DNA of 64,000 nt from Rhodopseudomonas sp. (lineage in GTDB: Bacteria; Pseudomonadota; Alphaproteobacteria; Rhizobiales; Xanthobacteraceae). The DNA lies in assembly GCA_016124795.1 (NCBI GenBank), contig WGNB01000028.1, forward strand, positions 62,001 to 126,000. The letters run 5' to 3'. The notes below the pieces were generated by a model, which saw only the letters and a program-made list of their open reading frames with translations, did not search any database and was not told the origin of the DNA. The position numbers and the translations under genes are program-made. Shown here piece after piece: positions 19,399 to 19,567 of this stretch (positions are counted from its first letter, which is position 1; each line of letters opens with the position of its first letter).

Positions 19399-19567
19399 TC
19401 AGTTGTCGAGGAACGACCGCAGCTTGCGCGACCGCGACGGGTGCTTCAGCTTGCGCAGCGCCTTGGCCTCGATCTGGCGGATGCGTTCGCGCGTCACCGA
19501 GAACTGCTGGCCGACTTCCTCCAGCATGTGGTCGGTGTTCATGCCGATGCCGAAGCGCATGCGCAGC
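19399..19567 (-). pseudogene. Displaced 3' end of rpoD (sigma-70 region 4 remnant)
   Basis: Read on the minus strand, this 169-bp segment encodes the last 55 residues of an RpoD protein, from [13 protein letters not shown] through region 4.2 to the natural C-terminus R-S-F-L-D-N and a stop. It matches the end of the intact rpoD (21598-21766). By hand alignment 12 of 169 bases differ, but only one codon changes an amino acid (Thr to Met after T-D-H). There is no upstream gene body and no start; homology stops abruptly next to a short palindromic repeat. It is a remnant, not a functional gene. Confidence 0.85.

Follow-up and report, generated by a model that had tools for sequence, protein, structure and literature searches.

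A displaced rpoD 3' end behind a three-gene insert in Rhodopseudomonas sp. exemplifies insertions that recur at the ends of core genes

Introduction

Phage 21 in the icd gene of Escherichia coli supplies a variant gene end and displaces the old end, as does e14. In minimal mobile elements, variable genes are located beside core genes and spread by homologous recombination. The e14 element is a prophage that supplies a variant icd end and displaces the old 163 bp of the gene, as described in PMC6379469. Insertion with long target duplication is known from the restriction-modification genes of Helicobacter pylori (Nobusato et al. 2000; PMC1643837, PMC3874152), and the inserted gene block is described as standing between the two copies of a long direct target duplication (PMC1643837). 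Type VI secretion system (T6SS) effector-immunity loci are reported to change by homology-facilitated illegitimate recombination, in which a homologous anchor at one end is combined with non-homologous joining at the other end (PMC5361080). At these loci and at rhs loci, the old 3' part is moved downstream in a stepwise manner that gives rise to arrays (PMC5361080, PMC3240628). Integrase-free hotspots are reported to change their gene content beside core genes via homologous recombination, and many variable bacterial loci change content without a recognised mobile element (PMC5635113). Integron cassettes are described as compact and mostly promoterless units that carry a recombination segment behind the gene and are stacked in arrays (in part PMC2654758, PMC5361080). 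Among the open-literature matches listed, as judged from titles and the starts of abstracts, no paper deals with displaced rpoD tails or with tail-flanked toxin-antitoxin pairs.

Here, a 64,000-nt stretch of a Rhodopseudomonas sp. genome (assembly GCA_016124795.1, contig WGNB01000028.1, positions 62,001 to 126,000), hereafter the window, was analysed around a duplicated 3' end of the sigma-70 gene rpoD. The locus shares its topology with e14 in icd and its long direct duplication with the H. pylori insertions, and it differs from both in the features described below.

Results

An earlier note on the window described a 169-bp copy of the sigma-70 C-terminus that is located 2.2 kb from rpoD and extends to its natural stop codon. 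The copy stands as described (Table 1). It matches the end of the intact gene without gaps at an offset of 2199; other offsets between 2190 and 2214 yield at most 64 agreeing positions. Across the 76 contigs of the window's genome, the rpoD-end stretch is present at two sites only, the fragment and the intact gene. The remaining eight of ten matches in this genome comprise seven copies of a short palindromic repeat and one stretch of another sigma-factor gene.

Table 1. Features of the rpoD locus in the window (positions of the window; strand as read in the window)
Feature	Position	Strand	Basis
Thioesterase gene (4HBT), native downstream neighbour of rpoD	18846..19235	-	4HBT E 7e-20
Decayed native rpoD terminator	19320..19349	-	CGGCGGG/CCCGCCG stem, one arm altered
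Displaced native rpoD 3' end (55 codons and TGA stop)	19399..19567	-	157/169 identity to 21598-21766; native terminator and thioesterase gene 3'
Palindromic dispersed repeat (REP-like) abutting the displaced tail	19570..19599	.	7 further genome copies matched
Insert gene 3, DUF2809 protein, 8-nt overlap with gene 2	19644..20063	-	PF10990 E 5e-24
Insert gene 2, DUF817 membrane protein	20056..20970	-	PF05675 E 1.3e-99
Insert gene 1, 178-aa orphan (ORF21049), starts 12 nt past the rpoD stop	21049..21585	-	
Present end of intact rpoD, most probably from the donor	21598..21766	-	terminator scan negative over 160 nt; differs from the fragment at 10 silent positions
Intact rpoD (sigma-70), 714 codons and stop	21598..23742	-	matches rpoD of relatives over its full length, identity up to 94%

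The fragment and the intact end differ at 12 positions, one in the stop codon (TGA and TAA, respectively) and 11 in the coding sequence. Nine of the 11 coding differences are found at codon position 3 (p 0.0014 against one third), and ten are silent; the sole replacement is Thr to Met. This recount agrees with the single amino acid change given in the earlier note. If the fragment had arisen by local duplication and decayed neutrally with equal rates at all sites, one replacement or fewer among 11 differences would have a p value of ~6e-4. At each of the ten silent differences, both states occur among relatives, and the base of the fragment is present in the intact rpoD of 7 to 20 of 25 genus genomes, depending on the site. 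The missense base of the fragment is found in the intact rpoD of none of the 25 relatives. The 41 coding nucleotides on the junction side contain one mismatch, at their last base. This segment was considered as an attachment core and dropped, as the intact rpoD resembles its relatives just as closely over this stretch (39-41 of 41 positions in 24 of 25 genomes and 35 in G020).

The terminator and the downstream neighbour of rpoD identify the native end. Terminators were sought as a hairpin with a T-run within 160 nt behind the stop codon. Such a structure follows the intact rpoD in 18 of the 24 genus genomes that lack a counted displaced tail (the scan misses G021, G003, G007, G049, G051 and G018), and the stem of the window's decayed terminator is shared with 15 of these 24. 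The same scan detects no terminator within 160 nt of the window's intact rpoD; a damaged yet recognisable native terminator and the thioesterase gene both stand 3' of the fragment. In G004, the site is empty: rpoD, terminator and thioesterase gene are contiguous, with ∼145 nt between the rpoD stop and the thioesterase gene. The earlier note had looked to synteny for relatives in which the thioesterase gene lies next to rpoD without the 19.6-21.6 kb segment, and G004 is such a relative. The thioesterase gene is also found near rpoD in G042, G049 and G048 and at a greater distance from it in G044, G008, G018, G009 and G015. Because the terminator and the thioesterase gene adjoin the fragment and not the intact gene, the sequence context identifies the fragment as the old rpoD end, and the current end would have arrived with the insert. 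The window's arrangement, with the terminator absent behind the intact gene and present behind the tail, is seen again in G041 and G489. It is not general: of 13 displaced tails tested, 6 are followed by a terminator-like hairpin, and the intact gene of G060, G278 and G495 has one as well or instead.

The earlier note proposed trees of the 3' end and of the rest of the gene as a check; trees of the tail and of the 795 nt before it were built, and neither places either copy. In the tail tree (28 rows, 165 columns), the two copies are not sisters, yet their sisterhood is not rejected (AU p 0.34), and the signal is too low to place them. The tree of the preceding 795 nt (19 rows) likewise has too low a signal. 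A different lineage for the new end is thus suggested by the silent states shared with relatives and by synteny; the tail tree cannot reject sister copies. The origin of the two copies from different rpoD lineages, as claimed earlier, is therefore favoured by two lines of evidence and left undecided by the third. The companion claim that a newcomer restores the gene end and pushes the old end aside is largely supported by the G004 synteny, the terminator and the shared silent states.

The ∼2.0 kb between the rpoD stop and the displaced tail contains three genes, all in the direction of rpoD. ORF21049 belongs to no Pfam or PADLOC family, has no viral relative among the viral contigs and exhibits one weak plasmid match (29.5% identity). 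It was found in none of 59 other relatives and in none of 118 other family genomes (overlapping samples), and the DUF817 gene is present in 2 of 59 other genomes, in one of them weakly. Relatives thus do not share the insert; sharing of the intervening genes without the fragment was, in the earlier note, one part of what would point to simple local duplication. A donor in which rpoD is followed by ORF21049 was not found among 60 relatives, 119 family genomes, plasmids and viral contigs.

None of the three insert genes has a PADLOC match, and no known mobility enzyme was detected among them by the Pfam search. The tyrosine integrase domain (PF00589) has no match in the insert genes or on the window's contig (C18). 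In ten genomes, no tyrosine integrase is found within 20 kb of rpoD as far as the contigs reach, several of them ending within a few kb. Searches with the tail returned, among the best 20 of 31 phage records and the best 20 of 121 plasmid records, mostly entries labelled sigma factor, rpoD or unannotated. A coarse test recognised no free rpoD tail on an element among the 80 kept of 446 viral-contig relatives. Many of the IMG/VR contigs L084-L155 carry a sigma-70 gene at or near their edge and are perhaps proviruses beside rpoD in other groups.

At the inner junction of the window, non-homologous DNA is joined to the tail. The last cargo stop is separated from the tail by 76 nt, with the dispersed palindrome inside, and this palindrome makes a repeat-borne route possible. 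Two further features were observed in the window. A perfect 11-bp inverted repeat (CCGCATGCCTG / CAGGCATGCGG, 13-nt loop) at 21555-21589 covers the start codon of ORF21049 just past the rpoD stop and is possibly an operator or a structure of the insert. An Mrr-type IV restriction endonuclease gene (15928-16878; Mrr_cat 4e-36, PADLOC mREase_IV 8e-105) is located ∼2 kb beyond the thioesterase gene.

Searches with the 55-aa rpoD tail in overlapping genus, order and family samples revealed displaced tails in 13 genomes, 12 of them besides the window's genome. In the genus sample (43 genomes searched, 14 without a match), a displaced copy is present in 4 of the 29 genomes with a match, namely the window's genome (G000), G017, G041 and G060. 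In the order sample, 374 of 397 genomes exhibit a match, 13 genomes besides the window's have more than one, and displaced tails are found in 6 of the 373 other genomes (G055, G088, G128, G203, G278 and G416). In the family sample, 104 of 119 genomes exhibit a match, and a same-strand displaced tail is present in five (G000, G278, G470, G489 and G495). The genus count (4/29) and the family count (5/104) both include the window's genome.

Several candidates were not counted. In the order sample, seven of the genomes with more than one match were set aside: G097, G115, G161, G232, G247 and G433 hold sigma paralogues or unclear fragments, and the extra match in G270 lies at a contig edge. G114, with a single contig-edge match, and the short pieces in G018 (18 nt) and G022 (23 nt) were also left out. 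From the family sample, the solitary fragments of G508 and G527, the opposite-strand tail of G520 and nine further genomes with a second match elsewhere were excluded.

The metK end served as a control and gave a second piece in 0 of the 42 genus genomes with a match. The difference from rpoD (4/29) has a Fisher p of 0.024 with the window's genome and of 0.06 without it, the window's genome being the starting case. The G000 assembly has no match to the metK C-terminal domain, unlike all 42 other genus genomes, probably because of an assembly gap.

The direct duplication at rpoD spans 169 nt in the window and 77 to 249 nt in the other genomes. The coding tails are ∼75 to ∼200 nt long, and their left ends differ between genomes; by eye, they form two loose clusters, near GCGCATGCGC and near CATCCGCCAGATCGAGG. 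In G278, the copies are 96% identical over 249 nt, terminator included. G203 contains two tails, on a second contig whose end overlaps that of the intact gene's contig. G128 and G203, which belong to different families, have an identical palindromic repeat fused to an identical rpoD position. In G060, 93 nt from inside rpoD (part of region 2) recur 3.3 kb downstream with 95% identity (L224, 2121-2213 and 5451-5543), in addition to the displaced tails of this genome.

The cargo between rpoD and the tail varies. It consists of hicB-hicA in G041, a DUF4160-DUF2442 pair in G088, a DUF2442 gene in G060 and a 67-codon ORF in G055. Several inserts thus hold small toxin-antitoxin-like genes (hicBA, DUF4160-DUF2442). 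The last cargo stop and the tail are separated by 16 nt in G041, 25 nt in G088, 1 nt in G060 and 17 nt in G055, and by 1 to 25 nt in six cases; the tail start in G060, where a 33-nt palindrome interrupts the tail, is our own reading. G470, from another genus, contains an rpoD-hicBA-tail-panD-tail array, in which hicBA is related to that of G041, the hicA frame is broken and panD encodes aspartate decarboxylase (PF02261 E 1.7e-49). The combination of hicBA and a tail behind rpoD is thereby found in two genera. Directly before the first tail of G470 (L239) stands an earlier rpoD stretch (∼266 to 193 nt before the stop), so more of rpoD would once have been displaced. In three genomes where no tail was counted, the 4 kb that follow rpoD contain cargo of other kinds: G010 has a type II-A retron, G015 an OLD/AAA-type protein and G008 a DUF4238 protein.

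DUF2442 genes gave 26 matches in 19 of the 43 genus genomes, seven of them within ∼5.5 kb of rpoD. A duplicated gene tail surrounds the DUF2442 gene at four of the 26 loci. The tail is that of rpoD at L216, of a Carboxyl_trans gene at L201 and of a 2-oxoacid dehydrogenase E2 gene, followed by a Pyr_redox_2 (lpd-type) gene, at L217. At L198, the tail comes from a gene that we read as B12-type ribonucleotide reductase; the part of it that was fetched yields no Pfam match. DUF2442-bearing inserts are located behind the gene so read in both L198 and L202, with stacked tails in L198, and this gene is a candidate second landing gene. This DUF2442 group, searched in one public genome collection, yields 17 loci. 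rpoD is directly upstream in five, including L222 (= G088) and L224 (= G060), which were already counted, and within ∼6 kb in three more (taken as G046, G065 and G041). A recognisable tail is present in two of the five DUF2442 loci directly behind rpoD and absent in three. Repeats around DUF2442 in L197, L204, L205, L214, L218, L211 and L213 resemble dispersed repeats or terminators rather than gene tails and were not counted. In L211 and L213, the DUF2442 genes are flanked by a dispersed palindrome of the type that abuts the window's junction.

Gene tails repeated downstream were also sought by self-comparison of 632,695 nt of fetched sequence, a biased sample chosen around rpoD and DUF2442. 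Such tails were found for a peptide methionine sulfoxide reductase gene (L044), PntB (L228) and a glyoxalase-family gene (L235). In L044 (5032-6243, from G010), 318 nt of the reductase tail are repeated downstream with 98% identity, near the type II-A retron behind rpoD. Matches in L051 and L074 were discarded, the former as a dispersed repeat and the latter for its weak similarity (77%). Mirror cases (head-type and upstream-tail) in the 632,695 nt were, by eye, only shadow frames or dispersed repeats.

Discussion

The window's locus is of interest less by itself than as an example of insertions that recur where core genes end. The fragment is native, the insert is absent from relatives, and the same arrangement is seen again with different cargo and at further conserved genes. 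As to the mechanism, we consider it probable that a segment from a related bacterium was inserted behind rpoD, replacing its end and displacing the old tail, and that homologous recombination anchored the insertion. The source DNA would come from a related bacterium in which the cargo genes stand directly behind the rpoD end. Because the rpoD end is conserved, homology is strong across families, and DNA that carries an rpoD end and cargo could pair there. Entry would accordingly be anchored by homologous (RecA-type) recombination within the very conserved rpoD end. The newcomer would swap the last coding part of rpoD for its own synonymous version, and the gene would stay whole because the newcomer brings a full end. 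The cargo would thereby be placed between rpoD and the rpoD terminator, and the recipient's old tail, terminator and thioesterase gene would be shifted downstream.

The far end could be closed in two ways, either illegitimately, with the joint inside the recipient's tail, or through a further exchange in a copy of the tail that the cassette already carried. The latter would be equivalent to a circle of tail and cargo that enters by one crossover. In the first event, the far junction would be formed by end-joining without homology, and the differing tail positions of this junction between genomes fit such joining. In later transfers, the tail behind the cargo would serve as a second homology arm, such that no further match would be needed; the identical repeat-tail fusion in G128 and G203 fits this role. 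The cargo may be transcribed by read-through from rpoD, and the co-directional placement of the cassette before the old terminator makes expression from rpoD likely.

Since no tyrosine integrase is found nearby and tail lengths vary, anchoring by homologous recombination is favoured over site-specific integration. Integration by a tyrosine or serine recombinase at a site in the rpoD end, with the integrase lost or located elsewhere, would reproduce the topology of e14, where 163 bp of icd are cut off and a new gene end is provided (PMC6379469), and the two left-end clusters seen by eye also speak for it. We nevertheless regard it as unlikely, given that the contig and, within contig reach, the 20 kb around rpoD in ten genomes lack a tyrosine integrase, that the coding tails have no constant left end, that some inserts consist of a toxin-antitoxin-like pair alone and that the pattern also occurs at unrelated genes. 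The earlier note's likening of the locus to foreign DNA integration at a gene's 3' end finds no support in its strict, site-specific sense, as left ends vary among comparable cases.

The palindromes suggest another route, in which dispersed REP-type repeats, mobilised by a transposase in trans, carry adjacent DNA. A dispersed palindrome abuts the window's junction, repeat DNA alone stands between tails in G128 and G203, and similar palindromes flank the DUF2442 genes of L211 and L213. By eye, however, no such palindrome is found at the G041, G088 and G055 junctions, and the repeats alone would not bring a new gene end, which leaves this route highly improbable. Local duplication of the rpoD end, followed by decay and a later insertion between the copies, would account for two close copies in the same orientation, for the 96% identity of the G278 copies and for a tail tree that does not reject sister copies. 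It is hardly to be expected from the silent differences, whose states are shared with the intact genes of relatives, and from the native terminator and neighbour, which belong to the fragment; we give it very little weight. An assembly or binning artefact is scarcely conceivable, although many relatives are known from drafts or metagenome assemblies, the rpoD of G017 contains N stretches and G203 is split over two contigs with overlapping ends, as the window's copies differ in sequence and sit in the middle of a 161 kb contig and as the pattern is seen again in assemblies that are independent of each other, among them ones with few contigs such as G495.

Homologous anchoring of a donor segment behind rpoD can be extended to a broader proposal, which we put forward tentatively and consider rather doubtful in its full breadth. 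In Hyphomicrobiales and relatives, recombinase-free cassettes may consist of cargo and the 3' tail of a housekeeping gene, above all rpoD, and may land by homology, stack and be read through. If so, a cassette would land behind any homologue of its tail's gene with the gene end restored, and rpoD would serve across families as a landing site of general use, where toxin-antitoxin and defence genes arrive. Tail-plus-cargo cassettes would explain how very small gene blocks repeatedly arrive beside core genes and how toxin-antitoxin pairs come to stand behind essential genes with the core protein unharmed. The displaced gene tail is a simple searchable scar that can be counted across all genomes. 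For phylogeny, the ends of markers such as rpoD may stem from another lineage.

Comparison with known systems

The topology is that of e14, which likewise supplies a variant gene end and displaces the old one. Whereas e14 is a prophage with site-specific integration, no tyrosine integrase was found near rpoD in the genomes searched, as far as their contigs reach, and the rpoD inserts show no constant site. At the T6SS loci, a homology anchor at one end is combined with non-homologous joining at the other, as may also be the case here, and together with the rhs loci they share the downstream displacement of the old 3' part and the arrays. Homology-facilitated illegitimate recombination depends on RecA and on linear DNA that enters the cell. 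There, effector or toxin ends and immunity genes are displaced; here, the conserved end of an essential housekeeping gene is swapped silently, and the cargo is unrelated to it. The exchange of gene content beside a core gene is shared with minimal mobile elements and integrase-free hotspots, which have two flanking core genes, whereas in the present loci the duplicated tail could be the second arm. Like integron cassettes, which are characterised by an attC folding site and IntI, the inserts are compact and stack with a putative recombination segment behind the cargo, but this segment is the tail of a host gene.

We favour reading the locus as a variant of insertion with long target duplication. 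A gene block stands between long direct copies of the target, the duplication (169 nt) lies within the range of at least roughly 50 nt by which such insertions are recognised, and an intact empty site exists in a relative, G004. The rpoD locus differs in that the duplicated part is the 3' tail of a core gene with its stop, so that the gene is restored, in that the copies can differ in a between-lineage fashion and in that inserts can stack. It also has no restriction-modification cargo, which is a frequent but non-defining association of these insertions. The locus thus seems to act like an insertion with long target duplication whose special features are a 3'-tail target, stacking inserts and a new gene end from another lineage.
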